A stretch of 64,000 nucleotides of DNA from Microbacterium foliorum (GTDB lineage: Bacteria > Actinomycetota > Actinomycetes > Actinomycetales > Microbacteriaceae): NCBI RefSeq assembly GCF_003367705.1, contig NZ_CP031425.1:3100001-3164000 (forward strand), in the 5' to 3' direction. Both the position numbers and the translations under genes were made by a program. The notes beneath the pieces are model-generated. The model searched no databases. It was not told where the DNA came from and saw only the letters and a program-made list of their open reading frames with translations. Each line of letters begins with the position of its first letter. Position 1 is the first letter of the stretch. Shown piece after piece: positions 5,232-64,000 of this stretch.

Positions 5232-5590
5232 CACGCGCAGCCGGGGTCAATAGTGCACCAGTGCACCGCCGCACGCAGGCGGGGTCGATAGCGCATCACC
5301 AACGCCCGATTCCGGTGCGTTTCTGACCCCGCCCAGTTCGCAGGTGCGTTTCTGACCCCGCATGGAAGGCGCGGACAGCGGATCGCCGGGGATGCCGCGA
5401 CCGAGGCGGATGCCGCGGATGCCGCGGCGGACGTGAGCGCTCAGGCGGGGTCGAAAACGCATCGCCGCACGCAGGCGGGGTCACTAGTGCATCGCCAACG
5501 CCCGATTCCGGTGCGTTTCTGACCCCGCCCAGTTCGCACGTGTGTTTCTGACCCCGCCCAGTTCGCACGTGTGTTTCTGACCCCGCACCG
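5232..5590. repeat. Inverted 29-bp repeat array, locus 1 (two modules)
   Basis: The 600 bases between ddaH and putA contain no gene. Instead there are forward copies of GGCGGGGTC (GGGG at 5243, 5281, 5447, 5477) and inverted copies TTTCTGACCCCGC (GACCCC at 5325, 5354, 5521, 5550, 5579). Inverted copies step by exactly 29 bases. The innermost forward and inverted copies span exactly 50 bases in both modules (5281-5330 and 5477-5526), with CCGATTCCGG-like sequence between them. The same design recurs at about 26 kb and 31.8 kb. Confidence 0.85.
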
Positions 5591-5636: not shown

Positions 5637-8600
5637 TCAGATGACCGAGGCGCTCCAGTCGTCGGGGTTGCCGTACCGGTGCGCGGTGATCGCGATCGCC
5701 TGCTCGTGCACGAACGGCAGCAGCTCGATGCGTCCGGCGGAGGTGACCTCGCCGTCGTACACCGCGAGGTCGGGGTCTCCCTCGACCGCCTCCGCCAGCG
5801 CCCGATGCAGCGCGGCGACGGAGGTCCGCGGTCCGACCAGGCGCACGCGGCCGGGCCGGGTGTCGGCGTCGAGCAGTTCCGACGCCGCGTCGGAATCGGC
5901 GCCGCGGCCCCGCATCCGTGCGATCCACTCGTCGTCGCTCTCCATGTACACGACCGCGCCGAGGTCGCCGAGCGCGCGACGCACCTCTGCCGGCAGCCCG
6001 ACCGGGGTCGACAGCACGAATGCCGCACCGGCTCGCACGGCGGCGATCACGACGCGCAGGAGCTCCTGCCATCCGGCATCCGCCGTCGCCCTGATCGAGA
6101 CGGGCACGGGCCGGTAGCGGAACAGGTTGCGCTCCACGCCCAGTCGCGACACGTCGCGCACCTGGCCGAACTCACGGTCCCAGGCCAGGGCGTCCGACAG
6201 CGCCGAGCGACGAAGCCACTCGAACGACTCGTAGTCGAGCGACGGCTGCGCCGACTCGATCAGCTCGGTGATGCGGGAGTCGAGGCCGCGCAGGTGCAGC
6301 GTGCTCGACACCGGCCCCGATCCGCTCGACCGCCACGACCCGAGGCCGATCAGGTAGTTCGGTCCTCCTGCCTTCGCGCCGGGACCGACCGATGAGCGCT
6401 TCCACCCGCCGAAGGGCTGCCGCTGCACGATGGCGCCGGTGATCCCGCGATTCACGTAGAGGTTGCCGGCCTGCACGCGGTCGAGCCAGAGCGCGAGCTC
6501 TTCAGGATCCTGCGTGTGCAGCCCCGCCGTCAGCCCGTAGGCCACGGCGTTCTGCAGCTCGATCGCCCGCTCCAGCGTCGGCGCGTGCATCACCCCGAGC
6601 ACCGGGCCGAAGAACTCCTCGAGGTGGAAGCGGGATCCCGGCTGCACACCGACGCGGATGCCGGGACGCCACAGCCGCCCGCTCGGGTCGTCGGCCGACA
6701 CGGCCGGCTCGATGAGCCACTTCTCGTCGCCCTCGAGTTCGGTCAGAGCCCAGGCGAGCTTGCCCTGCGGCCGTTCGATCACCGGCCCCACCTCGGCGAG
6801 CGGATCCGAGGGCCAGCCCACGTGCAGCGAGCGCGTGGCATCGGCCAGCTGACGGGCGAAGCGCTGCGAGCGGCCGACCGGCCCGACGAGGATCGCCAGC
6901 GACGCGGCCGAGCACTTCTGCCCCGCATGTCCGAACGCGCTGCGCACCAGGTCGGAGACGGCGAGGTCGAGATCGGCCGACGCCGTGACGATCATCGCGT
7001 TCTTGCCGCTCGTCTCGGCGAGCAGCGGCAGGTCGGGGCGCCATGAGCGGAACAGCGCGGCGGTCTCCCACGAGCCCGTGAGGATCACGCGGTCGACCGC
7101 ATCGTGTGTGATCAGCGTGCGGCCGAGCTCGCCCTCCTCGATGTCGACGAGGGCGAGCACATCACGAGGCACGCCGGCCTCCCACAGCGTCTCGGCGATC
7201 ACCGCGGCGCAGCGGCGCGACTGCGGAGCCGGCTTGAACACCACTCCGGACCCGGCGGCGAGCGCCGCCAGCACGCCGCCCGCCGGGATCGCGAGCGGGA
7301 AGTTCCAGGGCGGGGTCACGACGGTCACGCGCGCCGGCTCGAACGCGGCGCCGGCGACGGCATCCAGCTCCCTGGCCTTGGCGGCGTAGTAGCGCGCGAA
7401 GTCGACGGCCTCGCTGACCTCGACATCCGCCTCGGCGAAGACCTTGCCGGTCTCGGATGCGGCGACCTCGATGAGCTCGCCGCGCCGGCCCTCGAGTGCG
7501 GCTGCGGCCCGCAGCAGCACCTCGGCCCGCTCGGTGGCCGGACGCGACCCCCACTGTGCGCCGGCATCGTGCACCTCGGAGATCGTGCGCTCGAGCACCT
7601 CGGGGTCGTCGATGCGGGCGGCCTCGATGGTCGCGATGCCGAGCGGGGACTCCGCGATGCGCGCGTGGATGCCGCGCGCCCATTCGCGGTTGGCCGGCAG
7701 CGAGGGGTCGCTGTCGGGGGTGTTGGCGAAACCCGGAGCACCGCCGGTCCCCTCCTCCACCTCCCTGGGCGCGTACACCGCGGTCTCGAGGAACGGCCCC
7801 GTCGTCTCTGCAGACCCCCGGGAGATACCGAGCACGGCCTTGGTGAGCCCCTCCTCGGGGGCGGGGGCCACGGGTACGGGGCGCATCGACTCGTGCACGG
7901 GAGCGAGCCGGTCCTGGGTGCGCCGTGCTCCCTCCCACAGGGTCGGCGATGCGGAGCGCTCGACGGCGTCGAGGAAGCGATCGCGCTCGCGGACGAAGAG
8001 CGTCTCCTCCTCGCCGAGGCGGAAGGCGGCGGAGAGGAAGTTGTCGGTCGACGCGTTCTCCTCGAGTCGTCGCACGAGGTAGCTGATCGCGACGTCGAAC
8101 TCGTCGGGCTTCACGACCGGCACGTACAGCAGCACCTCGCCGACCTCGCGCGAGACCGCCTGCACCTGCCCCTGCGCCATGCCCAGGAGCATCTCGAACT
8201 CGATCGGGGGCTGCCCCGCCTCGGCCACCGCGGTGAGATCCCGCAGTCCGCGTTCTGCGGCGAGCAGCCAGGCGTAGGCGATGCCGAACAGGTTGTGCCC
8301 GGCGATGCCCAGGTGCACGGCCTCGATGTGCTCGAGCTGCAGCGCCCAGTCGAGGCAGCGCAGGTAGTTGGCGTCGGTGTCGATCTTGGTGTCGTAGGTC
8401 GCGGGCGTCCAGCCGTGCATGCGCGCCTCGACGTTCTCCATCGCGAGGTTCGCGCCCTTCACCAGGCGCACCTTGATGGGCGCGCCGCCGTGCTCGACCC
8501 GCTCGCGCGCCCACGCGGTGAGCTGCTGCAGGGCGGGCAGGGCGTCGGGCAGATACGCCTGCAGCACGATCCCCGCCTCGAGTCCGGCCAGACGCGGATC

Positions 8601-9341
8601 CTCGAGGATGCGGGTGAACACGGCGATCGTCAGATCGAGATCGCGGTACTCCTCCATGTCGAGGTTGATGAAGGTGCGGTCCGTGGCCGCCGTCGTGTAG
8701 AGCGGAAGAAGGCGCTCCACGACCGCGTCGACGACCTCGTCGAACGCCCACATCGAGATGTGGCTGATGATCGCCGAGACCTTGACCGAGACGTAGTCGA
8801 CATCGGGCCGACGGATCAGCTCGTGGATGCCGTCGAGCCGGCGCTGCGCCTCGGCCTCGCCCAGCACGGCCTCACCCAGCAGATTGAGGTTGAGTCTGGC
8901 GCCGGATTCGCGGATTCTCGCGATCGCGGGGCCGAGCTTCGCGGGGCGCGCATCGACGATGAGGTGCCCGACCATCTCGCGCAGCACCCGCCGCGCGATG
9001 GGGACGACCGGGGTCGGCAGCACCTGTGCGATCCCCCCGCCGAGCCGCACCGCGGAGCGCAGGTACCAGGGCAGGAACTCCGGCACGATCGGCGCGATCC
9101 GGTGCAGCTGGGAGGCCGCCGCGCTCAGGCTCTCCGGACGCATCACCCCGTCGACGAATCCCAGCGTGAACGGGAGCCCGTTGGCATCCTGCAGCACGCC
9201 CGCCAGACGCTCGGCGGCCGGGTCGACCTCGGCGGCGGCGGCTTCGACAGCCCAGCGGCGCGCGAGCGCGACGGCGCGGGCCTCGAGAGAGTCGGATGCG
9301 GGATCCGTTCCGGATTCCGTGGAGGGCATCGGGTCGGCCAT
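5637..9341 (-). CDS. putA: Bifunctional proline dehydrogenase / P5C dehydrogenase
   Basis: A 1234-residue PutA. The FAD-dependent proline dehydrogenase barrel spans about residues 45-490 (SVKVSAI, NLDMEEYRDL, RLVKGANLAMEN, GIAGHNLFG). The aldehyde dehydrogenase part spans about 560-1040 with Glu776 in LAETSGKN and catalytic Cys810 in GHAGQKCSA; the remaining 190 residues form the C-terminal domain. There is no N-terminal DNA-binding ribbon-helix-helix, so it is not a PutA repressor. The enzyme oxidises proline to P5C and on to glutamate, channelling the same intermediate made by RocD. Confidence 0.95.
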   Translation of the reverse strand: MADPMPSTESGTDPASDSLEARAVALARRWAVEAAAAEVDPAAERLAGVLQDANGLPFTLGFVDGVMRPESLSAAASQLHRIAPIVPEFLPWYLRSAVRLGGGIAQVLPTPVVPIARRVLREMVGHLIVDARPAKLGPAIARIRESGARLNLNLLGEAVLGEAEAQRRLDGIHELIRRPDVDYVSVKVSAIISHISMWAFDEVVDAVVERLLPLYTTAATDRTFINLDMEEYRDLDLTIAVFTRILEDPRLAGLEAGIVLQAYLPDALPALQQLTAWARERVEHGGAPIKVRLVKGANLAMENVEARMHGWTPATYDTKIDTDANYLRCLDWALQLEHIEAVHLGIAGHNLFGIAYAWLLAAERGLRDLTAVAEAGQPPIEFEMLLGMAQGQVQAVSREVGEVLLYVPVVKPDEFDVAISYLVRRLEENASTDNFLSAAFRLGEEETLFVRERDRFLDAVERSASPTLWEGARRTQDRLAPVHESMRPVPVAPAPEEGLTKAVLGISRGSAETTGPFLETAVYAPREVEEGTGGAPGFANTPDSDPSLPANREWARGIHARIAESPLGIATIEAARIDDPEVLERTISEVHDAGAQWGSRPATERAEVLLRAAAALEGRRGELIEVAASETGKVFAEADVEVSEAVDFARYYAAKARELDAVAGAAFEPARVTVVTPPWNFPLAIPAGGVLAALAAGSGVVFKPAPQSRRCAAVIAETLWEAGVPRDVLALVDIEEGELGRTLITHDAVDRVILTGSWETAALFRSWRPDLPLLAETSGKNAMIVTASADLDLAVSDLVRSAFGHAGQKCSAASLAILVGPVGRSQRFARQLADATRSLHVGWPSDPLAEVGPVIERPQGKLAWALTELEGDEKWLIEPAVSADDPSGRLWRPGIRVGVQPGSRFHLEEFFGPVLGVMHAPTLERAIELQNAVAYGLTAGLHTQDPEELALWLDRVQAGNLYVNRGITGAIVQRQPFGGWKRSSVGPGAKAGGPNYLIGLGSWRSSGSGPVSSTLHLRGLDSRITELIESAQPSLDYESFEWLRRSALSDALAWDREFGQVRDVSRLGVERNLFRYRPVPVSIRATADAGWQELLRVVIAAVRAGAAFVLSTPVGLPAEVRRALGDLGAVVYMESDDEWIARMRGRGADSDAASELLDADTRPGRVRLVGPRTSVAALHRALAEAVEGDPDLAVYDGEVTSAGRIELLPFVHEQAIAITAHRYGNPDDWSASVI

Positions 9342-11629: not shown

Positions 11630-13480
11630 TCAGCGACCCGACACGCTGCCGAACAGCTTGGCGATCGGGGCGATCACCAGCGGACGCGCCGCCGCCCAGC
11701 CGAGAGCGATGACCGCCATCGAGGCGACGAACACCCAGAATCCGGTCCAGCCGACGGCATCCGACGAGGCGTACATGTGGTTCAGGTTGCGCAGGAACCC
11801 GGTGAGGAACACGAGCGCCACGTGGCCGATGATGAACACCACGAAGTAGATCATCACCGGGAAGTGCAGGGCGCGGGCCCACTCGATCGGATACGCCTTC
11901 GACAGGCGCTCTGCGCGCTTCGGCCACATGCCCGACATGCGGAAGCCGGTGGCCGCGGCCAGCGGCGCGGCGATGAAGACCGTCACGAAGTACGCCAGCT
12001 GCTGCAGGCTGTTGTAGTTGACCCAGCCGTGCTCGGTCGGCCAGTCGAACGAGACGTACTGGAGCGCCGCCGACAGAGCGTTCGGCAGCACCTCCCAGCT
12101 CGTCGGCACGATGCGCACCCAGTGCCCGGTGACGAAGAGCAGCACGACGAAGACGGCGCCGTTCAGCAGCCACAGGATGTCGAGTGCCTGATGGAACCAG
12201 ATCGTCAGGCTGACCTTGCCCTTGGGGTTGTTGCGCGGGGTCCAGAACGCGGTCGGCCGCTTCTCGTTGCGGATGCGCAGACCCGACCGGATGATCAGCA
12301 CGATCAGGAAGGCATTGAAGAAGTGCGCCCAGTTGACCCAGGGCGCGAATCCCGGTTCGACCGCGATGGCCGGGGTGTACTCCCCCGGGAACGCGGCGAG
12401 GAAGTCCTGCATGAACGGGAAGCTGAGCAGTGCGCGCACGAAGGCGACGGCCGCGGCCGCCAGGATCCCGAGAGCCGCGGCCCCGAGCAGAACGGCGATC
12501 GCCTGGGTCCACGCGGGTCTCGGCCGGCCGGTCGTCGCCGTCGTGTCCGCCGTGATGTGTCGCGGGGCGCTGCCGTTCCAGACCGTGCGGGGGGCCGGCA
12601 GCGGCACCGACGGGTCGCCGAGAACGGACACGCGGGCCGGGGCGGCGGACACGGCGACGTCGACGTCACGGGAGGTCTCGACCTCTCGGGCCGTGTCCGC
12701 CGCGTCGTGGGCGGCGTCGGTGGTGAGAGAGGACGCAGCGGTCGCCGGCGCGGTCGTGTCCGTCGCGGACGCCGTCGTGGCCTGTGCCGTCGTGTCCTGT
12801 GCCGTCGTGTCCTGTGCCGTCGCGGCGATCGCCGGCACGATGCCGGCCGGAGGCCACGGCTCGCCGCCTGCGACGCGGGGCAAGCCTCGGCGGACCGACG
12901 ACGATGTCGTCGTCCGGCCTGCGTCGTCTCGTCGCTCCGCTCCACGCTCGGTGAAAGGGGACGCAGCCTCACGTGCGACCTCCGAGGAAACGCCCCCACG
13001 CTCGTTGAGCGAAGAGCCACCCCCACGCTCGTTGAGCGAAGAGCCACCCCCACGCTCGTTGAGCGAAGAGTCACCCCCACGCTCGTTGAGCGAAGACGGC
13101 GAAGCCGACTGAGACGAAACGCGCTCCGCACCGATGACCGCGATATCACCGGGAGGCCAGGCCTCGCCGCCGCGTACACGCGGAAGACCGCGTCGGAGCG
13201 ATGGGACCGTCGCGGCGGACGTTTCGTCTCGTCGCTCCGCTCCTCGCTCAACGACCGGGGAATCAACGACCGGGGAATCAACGACCGGAGACGAAACGAC
13301 CGGAGACGAAACGACCGGAGAGGAATCGACTGGAGACGCAGTCCCCTGCCCGTTGAGCGAAGACGGCGGAGCCGACGGAGACGAGACGCGCTCCCCCTCA
13401 TCGACAGCGATGTCGCCGGGGGGCCAGGGCTCCCCGCCGCGCACGCGCGGCAGGCCGCGCCTCAGCATCCGCGTCGCCAT
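11630..13480 (-). CDS. Membrane cytochrome b/b6-like protein with repeated N-terminal region
   Basis: A 616-residue protein. Residues from about 315 on hold several membrane helices with histidines placed for haem binding: [23 protein letters not shown] and [17 protein letters not shown], as in di-haem cytochrome b561/ferric-reductase-like proteins. The first 310 residues are cytosolic and odd: RRGLPRVxGGE.WPP occurs three times (residues 7, 96, 197), separated by SPVVD pentapeptides (about 53-77) and four SSLNERGG nonapeptides (129-163). The gene starts three bases after etfA ends, so it shares the ETF operon and may carry electrons between ETF and the membrane (inference). Confidence 0.82.
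12926..13392. repeat. Intergenic-type repeat carried inside the cytochrome b gene
   Basis: On the plus strand, CTCGTTGAGCGAAGA repeats at 13001, 13028, 13055 and 13082 (27-bp period), and TCAACGACCGG-type units repeat about six times with a 15-bp period at about 13240-13330. Inverted flanks (CGTCTCGTCGCTCCGCTC at about 12926 and 13226; GAGCGAAGACGG...GAGACGAAACGCGCTC at about 13088 and 13354) give two inverted modules. All periods are multiples of three, so the reading frame stays open. Confidence 0.75.
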
Positions 13481-25322: not shown

Positions 25323-25910
25323 ATGTCCAGCGAACCCATCACCGTCTCCATCCGCCGCGAGGTCGACCCCGAGCATGTGGCCGCAGCCACCGCGTGGGTG
25401 CAGACCGGCGTGAACCTCGCGCACCGGTACCCGGGATTCCTCGGCTCCGGCTGGGTGCGCGACGGCGAGGACTCGCACGTCTGGCACATGCTCTACCGCT
25501 TCACCGACGAGAAGTCACTGATCGCATGGGAGCAGTCGGGCGAGCGCGAGTGGTGGAAGTCGACCGGAGACCAGTTCGTGCGCAGCGAGCGCGTGAAGCG
25601 CCGCACCGGCATCGAGGGCTGGTTCGACGAGCCGACCACCGACACGATCACACTGCCCCGTGCAGACGGATCGACCACCACGGTCGCGATGGTGAGCACG
25701 CCTCCGCGGTGGAAGCAGGCCATCTCGATCTGGCTCGGATTCTTCCCCGTCAACCTGGCCTTCACCTACGCGATGAGCCCGGTTCCCGGCTGGAACGAGC
25801 TGCCCATCTGGCTGCGCGTGCTGACCACGACCGTGGTGCTCACGCCGATCATGGCCTACTGGGTGCTGCCCTTCGTCACCCGGTCGCTGCGTCGCTGGCT
25901 CACCCGCTGA
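25323..25910 (+). CDS. ABM-domain protein with C-terminal membrane helices
   Basis: A 195-residue protein. Residues 5-95 form an antibiotic-biosynthesis-monooxygenase-like ferredoxin fold (SIRREVDPEHVAAATAWVQTG, YPGFLGSGWVRDG, WHMLYRFTDEKSL). Two membrane helices follow at about 130-150 and 165-185 (AISIWLGFFPVNLAFTYAM; LRVLTTTVVLTPIMAYWVL). Such membrane-tailed ABM proteins are common in actinobacteria; their substrate is unknown. Confidence 0.82.
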   Translation: MSSEPITVSIRREVDPEHVAAATAWVQTGVNLAHRYPGFLGSGWVRDGEDSHVWHMLYRFTDEKSLIAWEQSGEREWWKSTGDQFVRSERVKRRTGIEGWFDEPTTDTITLPRADGSTTTVAMVSTPPRWKQAISIWLGFFPVNLAFTYAMSPVPGWNELPIWLRVLTTTVVLTPIMAYWVLPFVTRSLRRWLTR

Positions 25911-25990: not shown

Positions 25991-26600
25991 CCCCAGGCGG
26001 GGCCACTTGCGCACCTCCCCGCCAGGCGGGGCCACTTGCGCACCGGAATCGGACGATTCGGATGCACAACTGACCCCGCAGAACGTGCGGATGCAGAACT
26101 GACCCCGCGTACGCATCTGCACAGCGCAACTGCGCTCGGAACGCACCGCAGTCACACCCCGCCGCATCCGCCGCCGCATCCACCCCCCGCCGCATCCCCG
26201 CCGCATCCGCCGCCTTGCCCTGCCCGCTCCCCGGCGGGGCCACTTGCGCACCTCCCCCGCCAGGCGGGGCCACTTGCGCAGCGGAATCGGACGATTCGGA
26301 TGCAGAACTGACCCCGCACAGCCGCCGGATGCAGAACTGACCCCGCAGAACGTGCGGATGCAGAACTGACCCCGCGCACGCATCTGCACAGCGCAACTGC
26401 GCTCGGAACGCACCGCGGCCATCCCACGCCACATCCGCCGCCGCATCCGCCGCCTTGCCCTGCCCCCTCCCAGGCGGGGTCATTTGCGCACCTCCCCGTC
26501 AGGCAGGGCCACTTGCGCACCGGAATCGGACGATTCGGATGCGGAACTGGCCCCGCACAATGTGCAGATGCAGAACTGACCCCGCACAACCGCCGGATGC
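25991..26600. repeat. Inverted 29-bp repeat array, locus 2 (three tandem modules)
   Basis: The 732-bp gap between convergent genes holds three copies of a unit of about 238 bp. Each has two forward cores (GGGGCCA or variant at 25999/26028, 26236/26266, 26476/26505), a GAATCGGACGATTC centre, and two or three inverted TGACCCC cores (ending 26077, 26106; 26315, 26344, 26373; 26554, 26583). Steps are 29 bases (one is 30). The innermost pair spans exactly 50 bases in all three. A CATCTGCACAGCGCAACTGCG-like spacer and GCATCCGCCGC runs join the modules. Confidence 0.9.
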
Positions 26601-26642: not shown

Positions 26643-27599
26643 TCAGATCGCGGCGATCCGCCAGGATGCGGAGTGCTGGTCGCCGGGCTCGAGCACGACC
26701 AGGTCGGTTCCGGAGTTGAACGCGTCGGGCGGACAGGTCATCGGCTCGACCGCGAGGCCGATGCGGTGGATCGCGTCGATCCCGGGGTTGTCGGCCGTGT
26801 GCACCTGCACCCACGGGCACCGCTCGTCGAACGTCATCGCGACGCCGGTCCCGGCATCCGTCACCACGCGCACCTCGGCCACACCGCCCTCGCGGGCGAG
26901 GCCCGTGAACGCGTGGTCGATGAAGACGTCGGCGATCGGGCGCGCGGTGCGGAAGTCCCAGTGCGGATGCGCGGTCACGCCCTCGACCGCGACAGGACTC
27001 AACCGGTCGGGGGTCACCGTGAGCACGTCGGATGCCGGCAGCGTCAGCGTCCAGTCGTCGACCCGGCCGGAGCCTGCGACGAGGTACGGATGCGGTCCGG
27101 TGCCCCACGGCGCGGCATCCGCCCCGAGGTTGTGCGCGGTCACGGTCTGATGCAGCCCCTCGGCATCGAGACGGTACTCGGTCTCGACCTCGACACGGAA
27201 CGGGTACCCGGTCTGCGGCTCGATGACGGCGGCGAGCACGACGCGGTCGTCGAGCACGAGACGGTCCTCGAACTCGGTCCACGCCAGGAGCCCGTGCAGT
27301 GCCTGCCCCCGCGTGGGCTCGGTGAGCGCCAGCCGGTGTTCGACCCCGCCGAAGGTGTAGCGGCCGTCGACGATGCGGTTCGGCCACGGCGCGAGTGTGG
27401 TGCCGCGGTATCCGGGGCGCACCTCGTCGGCGTCGAACGGCACGACCAGGTCGCGCCCGTCGATCGTGAGCACGCGCAGCGAGGCGCCGACGCTCGCGAT
27501 GACCGCCTCGTATCCGTGACTCGCGATGCGCAGCTGTCGGCCGGAGCGCAGACGTGCGGCGGTCACGACATCGACGGCCGGTGCGGCGCCCTGCGTCAT
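26643..27599 (-). CDS. Aldose 1-epimerase (mutarotase) family protein
   Basis: A 318-residue galactose-mutarotase-like protein. GTTLAPWPNRI, ALHGLLAW, WGTGPHPYL (catalytic His) and AVEPMTCPPDAFN are family blocks, with the catalytic Glu probably in LAVEPM. It speeds interconversion of sugar anomers, here presumably of arabinose or galactose. The ATG at 27599 overlaps the araA stop (TGATG), making it the last gene of the araDBA operon. Confidence 0.9.
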   Translation of the reverse strand: MTQGAAPAVDVVTAARLRSGRQLRIASHGYEAVIASVGASLRVLTIDGRDLVVPFDADEVRPGYRGTTLAPWPNRIVDGRYTFGGVEHRLALTEPTRGQALHGLLAWTEFEDRLVLDDRVVLAAVIEPQTGYPFRVEVETEYRLDAEGLHQTVTAHNLGADAAPWGTGPHPYLVAGSGRVDDWTLTLPASDVLTVTPDRLSPVAVEGVTAHPHWDFRTARPIADVFIDHAFTGLAREGGVAEVRVVTDAGTGVAMTFDERCPWVQVHTADNPGIDAIHRIGLAVEPMTCPPDAFNSGTDLVVLEPGDQHSASWRIAAI

Positions 27600-31794: not shown

Positions 31795-32000
31795 GCGTGC
31801 GGGGTCAGTTTTGCACCTCGCACCCAGGCGGGGTCAGTTTCGCACCGGATACCCAGGCGGGGTCAGTTCAGCACCGCGCACCCAGGCGGGGTCAGTTCCG
31901 CACCGCGCACCCAGGCGGGGTCAGTTTCGCATCGGATACGGCCGATCAACGTGCGCAATCGACCCCGCCTGCGATTCACGTGCGAAATCGGCCCCGCACC
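31795..32000. repeat. Inverted 29-bp repeat array, locus 3
   Basis: Five forward cores (GGGGTCA at 31801, 31830, 31859, 31888, 31917) step by exactly 29 bases. Two inverted cores (GACCCCGC at 31961, GGCCCCGC at 31990) follow, again 29 apart. The innermost pair spans 50 bases (31917-31966). Between cores, only positions around TTxxGCACC vary. Confidence 0.9.
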
Positions 32001-32290
32001 GCGACGGCAGCGCGACGGCACGGCACGGGTCAGCACGCGACGGGTCGGCGCGGCCCGGGTCAGCACGGCACGCGACGGCACGGCACGCGACGGCACGGCA
32101 CAGCACGGCAGGGCAGCACGGCATCGGCCCCGCACCGCGACGGCAGGGACCGCACGGCACGGGTCAGCACACGACGGCACGGGTCGGCACGCGACAGCAC
32201 GGCAGGGACGGCACGGCACGGCAGGGGCCGCACGGCGGCGCGACGGCACGGCACGGCAGGGGCGCAGCACGGCGCGACGGCACGGCGCGG
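32000..32290. repeat. Degenerate GGCACGGCAC-rich repeat tract
   Basis: About 290 bases made almost wholly of shuffled GCGACGGCACGGCAC and GGGTCAGCAC words. No gene is present. It directly follows the 29-bp array and runs up to the stop of the LacI gene at 32292; it looks like a slippage-prone derivative. Confidence 0.7.
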
Positions 32291-32291
32291 G

Positions 32292-33305
32292 TCAGCGCGG
32301 CGGGGCGACCGAATCGCGGGTCACCAGCACGGGCGCCACGGGAGGGAGATCGGATGCCGGAGCCTCCGCGCTGCCCGCCAGCACCGCCGCCACCGCACGA
32401 CGCGCCAACTCGGCGAAGTCCTGCCGCACGGTCGTGAGCTTGGGCCAGTAGTACGCGGCGTCCGGGGTGTCGTCGAATCCCACCACGCTGATGTCGCCCG
32501 GCACGGTGAGCCCGGCTTCGTGCAGACCGCCGAGCAGCCCGAGCGCCATCTGGTCGTTCGCCACGAACACGGCCGTCACACCGGATCCGCGCACGGCCTC
32601 GACCGCCGCATAGCCCGATCCCGCGGTCCAGTCGCCCTCGAGCACGGGCCCGGCGGCGAGCCCTCTCGCGGCGAGCTCGGCGGCGAACCCCTCGGCGCGG
32701 GACTCGGCCTCGAGCCAGTCGGCGGGTCCGGCGAGGTGCGCGATGCTCGTGTGCCCCGCGTCGGCGAGCGCCGCGACCGCGAGCCGGGCTCCCGCCGCCT
32801 GGTCGACCGACAGGCCACGAGCCCCCCGGTCGGCCGCGTGCAGGGTGACGACCGGAACGCCGATGCGCACCGCGTCGAGCGCGTCGAGGGTGTGGGCGTG
32901 CGGGGCGACGACGACGATGCCCTCGACCCCCTGCATCACGAGGTGGTCGACGGCGGCGACCACGGCATCCGCATCCCCCGCGTCCGCGAAGGCCGCGCTC
33001 AGCCAGTACCCGGCCTCACGGGCCGAGGCCTCGAGCGCGGCGATGCTGCGCGAGGGACCGTAGTGCAGGGCGTCGGTCGCCAGCACCCCGAGAGTGCGGG
33101 AGCGCCGCGTCCCCAGCGCCCTGGCCGCGTTGTTCATGCGGTACCCGAGCTCGGCCATCGCGGCGAGCACCCGCTCCCTGGTCTCGGCCGCGACCTCCGG
33201 ATGGTCGTTGAGCACCCGGGAGACCGTCTGCCGCGACACTCCGGCGCGAGCGGCGACGTCACGCACCCCGACGGTGCGCGGGGGCTCGCTGCTGGTGTCA
33301 CTCAC
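32292..33305 (-). CDS. LacI-family regulator, candidate arabinose repressor
   Basis: A 337-residue LacI protein. The DNA-binding head reads VGVRDVAARAGVSRQTVSRV, followed by the hinge and a periplasmic-binding-like effector domain (TLGVLATDALHYGPSRSI, ISVVGFDDTPDAAYYWPKLT). GTG 33305 is preferred over a longer frame: TACACT, a good -10, lies a few bases upstream, suggesting a leaderless message. It sits next to the ara operon with its TGTGACCGGTCACA palindrome, so it probably acts as AraR; effector unproven. Confidence 0.88.
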   Translation of the reverse strand: MSDTSSEPPRTVGVRDVAARAGVSRQTVSRVLNDHPEVAAETRERVLAAMAELGYRMNNAARALGTRRSRTLGVLATDALHYGPSRSIAALEASAREAGYWLSAAFADAGDADAVVAAVDHLVMQGVEGIVVVAPHAHTLDALDAVRIGVPVVTLHAADRGARGLSVDQAAGARLAVAALADAGHTSIAHLAGPADWLEAESRAEGFAAELAARGLAAGPVLEGDWTAGSGYAAVEAVRGSGVTAVFVANDQMALGLLGGLHEAGLTVPGDISVVGFDDTPDAAYYWPKLTTVRQDFAELARRAVAAVLAGSAEAPASDLPPVAPVLVTRDSVAPPR

Positions 33306-52385: not shown

Positions 52386-52592
52386 GCGACCAGTTGCGAC
52401 GTGCGTAAGCGACCAGTTGCGACGTGCGGAGGCGACCAGTTGCGACGTGCGTAGGCGACCAGTTGCGACGTGCGTAGGCGACCAGTTGCGACGTGCGGAG
52501 GCGACCAGTTGCGACGTGCGGAGGCGACCGGTTGCGACGTGCGGAGGCGACCAGTTGCGACGTGCGGAGGCGACCAGGGGCGACGGGCCGCG
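52386..52592. repeat. Nine-copy 23-bp tandem array
   Basis: GCGACCAGTTGCGACGTGCG begins at 52386, 52409, 52432, 52455, 52478, 52501, 52524, 52547 and 52570; the last copy decays. Only the base or two before GGCGACC varies (GTA or GGA). Degenerate relatives extend up to about 52310. It lies between the LacI gene end and the operators of the GH30-type gene; no gene is present in this 418-bp gap. Confidence 0.88.
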
Positions 52593-62133: not shown

Positions 62134-62213
62134 GGAGGCGAGGCGAGGCGAGGCGAGGCGAGGGCGAGGGCGAGGGCGAGGGCGAGGGCGAGGGCGAGGG
62201 CGAGGGCGAGGGC
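62134..62213. repeat. GAGGC to GAGGGC microsatellite
   Basis: About five GAGGC pentamers switch to about nine GAGGGC hexamers. It lies in the 471-bp gap between convergent hydrolase genes, with GCGACCATCTGCGCC-like words of the 23-bp array family at about 62050. No gene is present. Confidence 0.85.
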
Positions 62214-62327
62214 GACATTCGTTGTCCCACACCCACATGAGGTGTCTCGCGCCCCGCGAGGTGCCTGCTCGCCCCGCGGATGAGCCCGTGATCGTCAATG
62301 CCGTCGCTGACCGGGTGCACGCGAAAA

Positions 62328-62412: not shown

Positions 62413-64000
62413 TCACTCCGTCTCGGTCTCCACGACCGAGCGGCTTCGACGGCGCAGGATCCAGACCGCGGATCCGAGCGCCAGGAGGAGAGCGCCGAGC
62501 GATGCCGCTGTCAGCGACGCACCCGCATCCCCTCCGGTCTTCGCGAGGGAACCGTCGGTGCCCACGCCCGTGCCCACGCCGGTGGACGGACCGCCGCCGG
62601 TCGACGTGCCGCCGCCGGTCGACGGAGTACCGGGGCCAGCGCCATCGGTGCCGCCGTCGGTACCACCATCGGTGCCGCCATCGGTCCCACCATCAGTGCC
62701 ACCATCGGTCCCACCGTCAGTGCCACCATTAGTACCGCCATCGGTCCCACCGTCCGTCCCGCCATCGGTGCCACCATCGGTCCCACCATCGGTCCCACCG
62801 TCAGTGCCACCATCGGTCCCACCATCAGTGCCACCGTCGGTCCCACCATCGGTGCCGCCGTCCGTGCCACCATCGGTGCCGCCGTCGGTGCCACCATCAG
62901 TTCCACCATCGGTACCGCCATCAGTGCCACCATCAGTGCCACCATCGGTACCGCCATCGGTACCGCCATCGGTACCGCCATCGGTACCGCCATCGGTACC
63001 GCCATCGGTACCGCCGTCGGTGCCACCGCCGGTGTCGGCGCGGGCGACGGTGAGCGGCAGTCGTGCGAGCTCCGTCTCACCGTCGCGGAGCACGATGTGG
63101 TGCGCACCCGCCGTCGTATCGGCGGGGATCACCACGGTCGCCTCGATCCAACCGTCGGCGACGGTCGCGGTGGCGAGCGGGCGATAGGTGCTCTCGATGC
63201 CGATCTCGACCTCGTCGACCGTCACCCCCGTGGCCGTCACGGTGACAGAACCACCCGCGGCGACCTCCGAGACCGAGAGCTGAGCCTCCAGCTCCACCTC
63301 GGGGCTGTCGTCGATCGGGGCGAACGCCCAGTTGTCGACCTCGAACAGGTCGGTCTCGGCATCCGCGCCCTCGGCGCCGGCGAAGACGAAGAACACATCG
63401 TGCTCGCCCGCGGCGCCGGTGACGTCGGCCTCGACCGTCGCCCACTCTCCGACCGCGCCGTCGACGGGGATCTCCGCCACGACGGGACCGTCGACGTCAT
63501 CCAGACGAACCTGGATGCTGCTTCCGGCGACCAGCGGCTTCACCGTCGCCGACACCTTCTGGGCGCCGGCACCGAAGTCGACACCCGCGATGCCCGAGAA
63601 GTCTCCGTCATCGACGCTCGAGAGCACCATGTTCCCCGACCCGTTGTGCTCGGGGAACTCGACCGAGACGGCATCCGTCGTGGCCGTGGCGATGCCGAGC
63701 TGCCAGGCGAGCGTCTCCGCCTCGAAGGTGCGGTACGGGTCGAAGCTCTCGACCTGCTCCACGCCGGCGCGGGTGCCGACGATCGGCTTGATGGTGCCGT
63801 CGTCGTTGAACTCGAGCTTGTCGATGTGCACCGAGCGGTAGCCCTGCGTCGCACCGGGGGTGCCGAGGGCCTCCGCCCACGCCGCACCGCGCGTCTGCGC
63901 ATGGTAGGTGAAGTACGTCTCGCCCTTGTAGTCGAACATGTCGGAGTGGTTGTTGCCGCCGTTGCCCGCACCGAAGAACGTGCCCTGGTTCTGGAACGCC
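62413..64000 (-). CDS. Cell-wall-anchored GH43/CBM6 protein, 5' part missing
   Basis: The last 529 or so codons of a large surface hydrolase; the start is beyond the window. First visible residues (GNNHSDMFDYKGETYFTYHAQ region) belong to a GH43 propeller. A CBM6 follows (FEAETLAWQLGIATATTD to VDNWAF), then an Ig-like domain, about 32 TDGG tetrapeptides as linker, and a sorting signal LAKTGG, membrane helix (LTAASLGALLLALGSAVWIL) and RRRSR tail. Sortase would attach it to the wall with the enzyme held away from the cell. Probably an arabinofuranosidase or xylosidase. Confidence 0.88.
   Translation of the reverse strand, partial: AFQNQGTFFGAGNGGNNHSDMFDYKGETYFTYHAQTRGAAWAEALGTPGATQGYRSVHIDKLEFNDDGTIKPIVGTRAGVEQVESFDPYRTFEAETLAWQLGIATATTDAVSVEFPEHNGSGNMVLSSVDDGDFSGIAGVDFGAGAQKVSATVKPLVAGSSIQVRLDDVDGPVVAEIPVDGAVGEWATVEADVTGAAGEHDVFFVFAGAEGADAETDLFEVDNWAFAPIDDSPEVELEAQLSVSEVAAGGSVTVTATGVTVDEVEIGIESTYRPLATATVADGWIEATVVIPADTTAGAHHIVLRDGETELARLPLTVARADTGGGTDGGTDGGTDGGTDGGTDGGTDGGTDGGTDGGTDGGTDGGTDGGTDGGTDGGTDGGTDGGTDGGTDGGTDGGTDGGTDGGTDGGTDGGTDGGTDGGTNGGTDGGTDGGTDGGTDGGTDGGTDGGTDGAGPGTPSTGGGTSTGGGPSTGVGTGVGTDGSLAKTGGDAGASLTAASLGALLLALGSAVWILRRRSRSVVETETE

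Follow-up and report, generated by a model that had tools for sequence, protein, structure and literature searches.

What holds a set of short mirrored repeats to one exact geometry, and what brought them to the places where they stand? This question is raised by a stretch of 64,000 nucleotides of Microbacterium foliorum (NCBI RefSeq assembly GCF_003367705.1, contig NZ_CP031425.1, positions 3,100,001 to 3,164,000; this whole stretch is referred to below as the window), in which a short half-site occurs in three arrays, as direct arms around 50-bp palindromic cores. Half-sites of the same type were also found on both sides of a gene for a putative nuclease elsewhere in this genome. On the basis of the sequences compared, we consider it fairly probable that the half-site is the recognition sequence of this nuclease, that the 50-bp palindrome is its dimer site and that the arrays have spread in a manner like that of repetitive extragenic palindromic (REP) elements, where we infer the binding and the cleavage as well as the spreading.

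Geometry and sequence of the repeats

The repeats are not a product of chance, because the half-site pattern had 142 exact matches in the whole M. foliorum genome (3.57 Mb, one contig) against 4 for a reversed control, and the 50-bp palindrome pattern (with at most two mismatches) had 63 matches against none. Among 253 clustered sites in fetched stretches of this genome (14 picked by half-site or BLAST matches and 2 more by the 50-bp pattern; a cluster required two sites 26-45 bp apart), adjacent plus-then-minus sites at most 70 bp apart spanned 50 bp in 59 of 60 cases. The same span was found in 38 of 39 such pairs in a relative (genome G001, 156 sites), most stretches of which had been picked by the 50-bp pattern itself, which bears on that count. 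Of the same-strand neighbours, 102 of 125 in M. foliorum and 52 of 69 in G001 had a spacing of 29 or 30 bp, and among the remaining same-strand spacings 38-41 bp (11 of 23 in M. foliorum) and 41-43 bp (6 of 17 in G001) were frequent, i.e. approximately one extra helical turn; the minus-then-plus distances were broad. The loci of named assemblies, located by means of the 50-bp pattern, comprised 86 clusters, and 24 of these were a three-site module of exactly 80 bp (30 + 50). The initial annotation of the window had proposed that selection acts on the geometry, and this is supported by the 50-bp span in both genomes: a loss of constancy on the genome-wide scale, which would have spoken against the proposal, did not occur.

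All three repeat loci described in that annotation are present in the window (none is assigned to a strand). Array A (5243..5584) comprises 9 half-sites (++--++---) in two modules with 50-bp palindromic cores at 5281..5330 and 5477..5526. Array B (25999..26583) comprises 13 half-sites in three tandem modules with cores at 26028..26077, 26266..26315 and 26505..26554, and array C (31801..31995) has five left half-sites at exact 29-bp steps, then the core (31917..31966) and then a second right half-site. A low-complexity stretch of the ACGGC type (32004-32290) follows immediately after array C. The innermost plus/minus pair indeed measures exactly 50 bp in all six modules. The 29-bp arm spacing claimed before holds for most arms but proved to be loose, as spacings of 30 bp (26236 to 26266 and 5447 to 5477) and 38 bp (5243 to 5281) occur as well, and the large module said to recur three times at 238 bp does stand in tandem three times in array B, with a period of 238 and then 239 bp between the core starts.

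The consensus of 73 unique cores was GGGGTCAnTTnCGCAYC, followed by a loosely palindromic middle and the mirror image. The half-site has a 16-17-bp form, GGGGYCR-N5-GCAY-C, in which the central TT may be AA on either side of the core. In 92 unique cores, no pair of opposite positions was complementary clearly more often than expected from shuffling (largest z 0.6), and the pairs 8/43, 16/35 and 25/26 were complementary even less often than expected (z -2.9, -3.8 and -3.0, respectively). Since the half-sites do not covary across the dyad, DNA-protein sites are favoured over RNA hairpins, and the sequence pattern of the core resembles that of half-sites in duplex DNA and not that of RNA stems. 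Of the causes that had been suggested for the geometry, protein binding on DNA therefore appears the likeliest, whereas cruciforms and nested RNA hairpins do not agree with opposite dyad positions that lack covariation, several of them being significantly negative. In the same way we set aside, as very improbable, the reading in which the arrays are transcribed and fold to hairpins that act as terminators or stabilisers: the location at gene 3' ends (see below) and the partly palindromic sequence would suit it, but it is contradicted by the missing covariation and the excess of mismatches at the three position pairs, by the occurrence of arms as direct repeats too, and by the absence of any match to the repeats in Rfam.

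A nuclease gene bracketed by the repeats

The same palindromes were found both upstream and downstream of a gene of M. foliorum (G000:C1:3054267-3055184) that lies 45 kb before the window and encodes a protein of approximately 306 residues; because the gene lies outside the window, this partner had been missed in the initial annotation. Half-sites on both sides of one gene were found in six sources (L036, L044, L051, L057, L073 and L095). The C-terminus of the protein matches the Pfam families REase_MTES_1575 and DUF559 (35 of 39 family members each at E <=0.01, the query itself being below the Pfam cut-offs), and the alignment (102 rows, two of them duplicates) has residues E207, H256 and D266 in every row and D239 in 98%. 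As judged from these residues, the C-terminal domain carries the signature of an EDxHD nuclease (Vsr/DUF559-like). Comparison of the nuclease profile with PDB yielded 3hrl (E 2.8e-4) and, weakly, 3r3p ('Mobile intron protein', E 0.019), which we take to be I-Bth0305I. For the N-terminal 200 residues no confident family was obtained with Pfam and PDB profiles, and the Pfam model AbiEi_4 gave a weak match in 1 of 39 members (E 0.007) and in 1 of 32 (E 0.011). There was no match in NCBIfam, and PADLOC, searched like NCBIfam with two proteins, gave a match at E 0.043 only. An origin from phages or plasmids was considered and rejected, as no relatives of the nuclease were found in viral contigs and only distant ones in phages (one match, 28% identity) and plasmids (five matches, 27-35%).

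The association of the repeats with nuclease genes is well supported. We compared 99 homologous genes with 150 of 330 random Microbacterium genes located away from known arrays. Of the homologues, 40 had >=50% identity to the query and 59 had less, some of these 59 coming from other genera of the order; a gene whose flank was short and two duplicates were excluded. A copy score, defined as four copies of one 15-mer (at most two mismatches) common to the upstream and downstream 260 bp and in both orientations, or as five or more copies, was reached by 63 of the 99 nuclease genes and by 1 of the 150 controls (2 of 41 in an earlier, smaller control set). Both flanks carried an inverted pair of a motif common to them in 48 of the 99 genes and in none of the controls. 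The idea that the arrays are unrelated minisatellites, accidentally standing beside the nuclease, agrees with the local tandem growth that is evident, but it retains hardly any probability in the face of this difference in bracketing and of sequence-different motifs that stand beside related genes and are dispersed in their own genomes.

In several genes the offset of the inverted pair was equal on both sides (19/19, 32/32, 37/37, 39/39, 44/44 and 61/61). These examples differ between genes, and therefore the offset varies among distant paralogues. With the span fixed at 50 bp, palindromes with 13 or more of 17 positions paired were found upstream of 27 and downstream of 21 of 42 subfamily genes and upstream of 8 and downstream of 11 of 32 more distant nuclease genes; of the flanks of window genes, with the arrays included, 5 of 94 had one.

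A further finding was that the motif depends on the gene. For the 18 genes with palindromes on both sides, the upstream and downstream half-sites of one gene agreed at 15.2 of 17 bases on average (only 4 in one gene), against 8.2 of 17 between different nuclease genes, and the own flank was best or tied in 15 of the 18. In 33 subfamily genes, with the best palindrome chosen automatically as the motif, the distance between motifs was correlated with the distance between proteins for residues 1-75 (r 0.49), 76-200 (r 0.44) and 201-306 (r 0.35). With the nuclease domain held fixed, partial correlations of 0.36 for residues 1-75 and 0.30 for residues 76-200 remained (P 0.0005), and when the middle part was held fixed instead, the nuclease domain showed no correlation with the motif distance (partial r 0.08, P 0.21). 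These distances indicate that the repeat motif varies by gene and tracks the N-terminal part of the nuclease.

A role of the palindromes in the control of the gene has to be weighed here as well. Flanking palindromes could autoregulate the gene as in AbiEi, the dispersed copies merely titrating the protein; in most subfamily genes approximately 100-200 bp separate the end of the best upstream palindrome from the start codon, which is in line with such an operator. The antitoxins AbiEi and Rv2827c, with a DNA-binding N-terminal domain that acts on long inverted repeats, resemble the nuclease as proposed here, and AbiEi, according to PMC7319586, binds two 23-bp inverted repeats 3 bp apart (23 + 3 + 23, 49 bp in total). 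The nuclease differs from them in that a nuclease domain takes the place of the antitoxin domain, and the Pfam match to AbiEi is weak and limited to 1 of 39 members. An operator with decoys would leave both the matching downstream copy and the origin and multiplication of dozens of arrays unexplained, and we consider it quite unlikely as the whole explanation.

Of 101 nuclease genes (one a duplicate), 52 have the motif T[TGC]NTCCACA in the 160 bp before the gene, often near -70 or -87 or reversed at -45 to -53 (e.g. L134 1414-1439; upstream flanks L130-L257); it was found in none of the 101 downstream flanks and in none of 48 window genes. We take this motif to resemble a DnaA box, and it may tie expression of the nuclease to replication.

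Placement, distribution and further families

In the window, at least one gene 3' end adjoins each of the three loci, as had been noted before. Array A lies between the 3' end of a proline dehydrogenase/aldehyde dehydrogenase gene on its right (5637..9341, minus strand) and the start of the next gene on its other side; array B lies between two convergent genes, encoding a protein with an antibiotic biosynthesis monooxygenase domain (25323..25910, plus strand) and an aldose 1-epimerase (26643..27599, minus strand), both with the 3' end toward the array; and array C has on its right the 3' end of a gene for a LacI-type regulator (32292..33305, minus strand). The 22 fetched arrays of the whole genome were located in 10 convergent, 12 tandem and no divergent gene gaps (three loci, with an overlapping open reading frame (ORF) or a stray site in the automatic call, were assigned by eye). 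Background gaps of >=60 bp are 35% divergent and 10% convergent, which gives binomial P values of 7e-5 for the avoidance of divergent and 3e-5 for the excess of convergent gaps, to be read with the reservation that arrays cluster and thus are not independent. Over all loci 7 of 111 were divergent (0 of 22 in M. foliorum, 3 of 21 in G001 and 4 of 68 in named assemblies), with orthologous loci counted more than once and with 18 edge or overlapping clusters plus one further edge cluster left out. A location at gene 3' ends like that of REP elements and of bacterial interspersed mosaic elements (BIMEs, in which REP repeats are multiplied as mirrored arrays), as suggested earlier for the window, is supported by the absence of any of the 22 arrays between divergent genes.

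This placement could also mean that the sites have been domesticated: a nuclease-type protein or a partner, bound to the arrays at gene 3' ends, would serve the host by blocking transcription, as an insulator or in organising the chromosome near the origin. The 10 of 22 arrays in convergent gaps, against 10% in the background, would fit such a function, and so would the arrays that stand between one and the same convergent gene pair in 7 of 13 sources (L030, L078, L083, L085, L087, L099 and L129). A further point in its favour is that among the half-sites listed (in order up to 3.06 Mb) no exact one lies between 0.86 and 2.73 Mb of the M. foliorum genome, the origin of which is placed at 3.56 Mb by parS. 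Its arrays, so far as listed (0.15-0.86 and 2.73-3.44 Mb of G000:C1), occupy the origin-proximal half. On the other hand, catalytic residues are retained throughout the aligned family, copy number and motif differ sharply among relatives, and among the matches listed for G001 palindromes at 1911, 2737 and 2852 kb are outside the origin half; REP elements, moreover, have a similar location according to PMC3733652. Domestication as the cause of the arrays thus seems unlikely to us, although it is the strongest of the competing explanations.

The 13 sources are M. foliorum, G001 and the 11 assemblies to which 69 stretches, all titled Microbacterium, belonged in a scan of 84,980 species genomes with the 50-bp pattern. 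Few 60-mers were common to M. foliorum or G001 and the other sources (at most 17 of 9061 and 13 of 5936, respectively). The 3' end of one gene of 67 residues holds an array in 8 of the 13 sources, the second neighbour being the same as well in 6 of them. In 5 of the 13, arrays stand at the 3' ends of the monooxygenase and epimerase genes known from the window, with two extra genes between this pair in 3 of these. Within the genus, the strict half-site was present in 14 to 142 copies in 6 of 198 genomes and in 0 to 5 copies in the rest. This strict TT-type pattern was rejected as a measure of presence, since it misses the many arms in which the middle bases are AA or mixed: genome G145 has one strict match, yet is the same DNA, where compared, as Microbacterium sp. 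C5A9, which has six 50-bp palindromes in its fetched loci. GGGGYC-type palindromes were also observed in M. hydrocarbonoxydans C1-2 (L070, L084 and L089); in G014 (L161), probably the same genome, the nuclease flank motif is of the TGGATC type.

Motifs taken from the flanks of other nuclease genes were dispersed in turn. RGATGGAAAACGYC, from nuclease flanks of other genomes, had 4 to 27 copies in 8 of the 198 genomes and 0 or 1 in the rest (control: 2 in all), and all 8 genomes carry a nuclease homologue of >300 bits. All four copies of G098, one of these genomes, belong to the nuclease flanks, and the other seven genomes have copies elsewhere. In 20 fetched loci of two genomes, this family kept the same 34-bp offset in 41 of 48 inverted pairs. 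GGTCGCANWWNCWGC, of the GGTCGCA type and from the flank of a paralogue with 36% identity, had 8 to 42 copies in 11 of the 198 genomes and 0 to 4 in the rest, and in 20 fetched loci of three genomes it showed a 51-bp span in 12 of 14 inverted pairs and 31 bp between 5 of 8 direct neighbours. As one mismatch was allowed, some of the clusters used for the placement of these two families are due to chance: the 32 clusters of the second family met a called ORF in 17 cases and were convergent in 5, tandem in 7 and divergent in 3, and those of the third were convergent in 6, tandem in 8, divergent in 2, in ORFs in 3 and at edges in 3. Three sequence-distinct motifs are thus dispersed with near-identical geometry, the placement being less clear for the second.

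Some other repeats were seen by the way. A 23-bp tandem repeat (GCGACCAGTTGCGACGTGCGGAG, 8.7 copies) between called genes of the window (52386-52585) resembles the GGTCGCA motif reversed. A 27-bp tandem repeat (CTCGTTGAGCGAAGA..., ending GACTGAGACGAAACG) at 12993-13096 and 13221-13360, with related pieces nearby on both strands, may be another repeat family, and at 62642-63027 and 62137-62215 there is a 12-bp repeat of 32 copies, within a called minus-strand gene, together with a nearby run of GGCGAG. Intergenic inverted repeats that differ in sequence from these were seen by eye near gene ends in genomes that lack the GGGGYCA family (L265, L277, L279, L287 and L214); they are possibly further nuclease-linked families.

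Proposed element and its relation to known systems

The match between nuclease and repeats suggests a partnership that may spread the repeats. A nuclease dimer would bind the 50-bp palindrome with one N-terminal region per half-site, and extra direct half-sites at 29-30 bp (sometimes approximately 10.5 bp more) would accommodate further monomers along one face of the helix. The palindromes beside the gene would provide self-regulation and mark the ends of the unit, and a break or nick at palindromes, followed by copying repair, could spread both the unit and its sites. Dispersed arrays would then be non-autonomous copies, spread in trans by the nuclease like REP elements and BIMEs, retained where they are least harmful, i.e. 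at gene 3' ends, and multiplied locally by tandem duplication. In its widest form the proposal describes selfish elements of a new class, in which the gene of an EDxHD nuclease and the palindromes that bracket it would move together as [palindrome]-gene-[palindrome]. The specificity of the nuclease would drift with its palindromes, non-autonomous arrays of 50-bp dimer sites would be seeded by it at gene 3' ends, and throughout the Micrococcales the various repeat families would be driven by different paralogues; this we put forward tentatively, at somewhat less than an even chance.

The loci themselves vary in a way that can be gain or loss. In M. foliorum the downstream neighbour of the nuclease is a protein of 69 residues without Pfam match, the upstream neighbour resembles by eye a luciferase-like monooxygenase (LLM), and no toxin gene, such as that of the AbiEii nucleotidyltransferase in the AbiEi type IV toxin-antitoxin system, was recognised beside the nuclease. 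An LLM-type monooxygenase gene is located within 1.5 kb upstream of the nuclease in 18 of 30 subfamily loci, and in 10 of the 30 the nuclease lies between this gene and the 69-residue gene; it lies beyond the latter in L139 and beside it in the other orientation in L156 and L159. In 8 of 30 loci of the LLM-type monooxygenase gene both neighbours are 81-225 bp apart without a nuclease, so both empty and occupied nuclease sites exist across genomes. The gap between the monooxygenase and epimerase genes of the window measures 732 bp in M. foliorum, 620 bp in G157, 186 bp in G166 (one +-- module) and 10 bp in G145.

Several observations weigh against a mobile nuclease as the source of the arrays. 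We recognised neither a target-site duplication nor an exact insertion boundary at the loci just described, and arrays at the same genes in several species fit old, vertically inherited sites as well as spreading. By the tests used, 36 of the 99 nuclease genes remained under the copy score and 51 lacked the full bracket, and many genomes hold a nuclease homologue without many repeats. The lowest counts of GGTCGCANWWNCWGC (8) are near the highest control (7; controls ranged from 0 to 7 per genome). GGGGYC palindromes occur in one assembly with another motif at the nuclease flank of what is apparently the same genome (C1-2 and G014), where they are possibly fossil repeats of a lost specificity. 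Finally, that nuclease and repeats occur together in the first family was discarded as proof: this is not independent evidence, because a core gene (aldose epimerase) ranks the same genomes nearest to M. foliorum (G157, G150, G145, G166, G001 and G148) in nearly the same order, and the case therefore rests on the bracketing, the motif tracking and the further families.

The closest parallel is found in REP elements, which according to PMC3733652 are short intergenic palindromes located for the most part in tandem or convergent gene gaps, with the gene of a REP-associated tyrosine transposase (RAYT) flanked by family members; REP with RAYT are termed REPtrons, and TIRtrons are those in which long inverted repeats flank RAYT-like genes. 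The repeats described here share with REP and RAYT the intergenic palindromic nature, the location between tandem or convergent genes, the mirrored arrays and a partner nuclease gene flanked by repeats. They differ in the partner, an EDxHD endonuclease and not a Y1 HUH tyrosine enzyme, and in the strict 50-bp inverted geometry with direct arms at approximately 30 bp, built from half-sites without selection for pairing. The GTAG/CGTC tag of REP (a hairpin repeat of 20-40 bp) is absent from the consensus of the 73 unique cores, and the bracketed gene is not a Y1 HUH transposase, having an EDxHD domain instead (a Y1 gene elsewhere in the genome was not searched for). Without HUH partner at the bracket, GTAG tag and hairpin selection, the arrays are not members of the REP/RAYT system, although they would work like it.

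With the EDxHD homing endonuclease I-Bth0305I, which according to PMC3943268 dimerises on a target of nearly 60 bp, the nuclease shares the catalytic signature, and its profile gives a weak match to 3r3p. It differs in that its gene is chromosomal in actinobacteria and bracketed by its own palindromes, and in that many target-like copies persist in the same genome. By analogy, the sites of AbiEi and I-Bth0305I illustrate that a binding geometry such as the one proposed is possible. In open-licence papers we found no account of repeats that have a DUF559 or EDxHD nuclease as their partner, and a check for a known, annotated repeat family in that literature and in Rfam yielded none.

Many bacterial intergenic palindromic repeats have no known maker, and the maker proposed here comes from an enzyme class unrelated to RAYT. 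The proposal offers a testable link between protein residues and half-site bases in several sequence-distinct families, and the shape of the complex can be predicted from the fixed geometry. Should the proposal prove correct, it would account for a layer of the intergenic repeats of actinobacteria and would provide a natural set of long-site, palindrome-specific nucleases.
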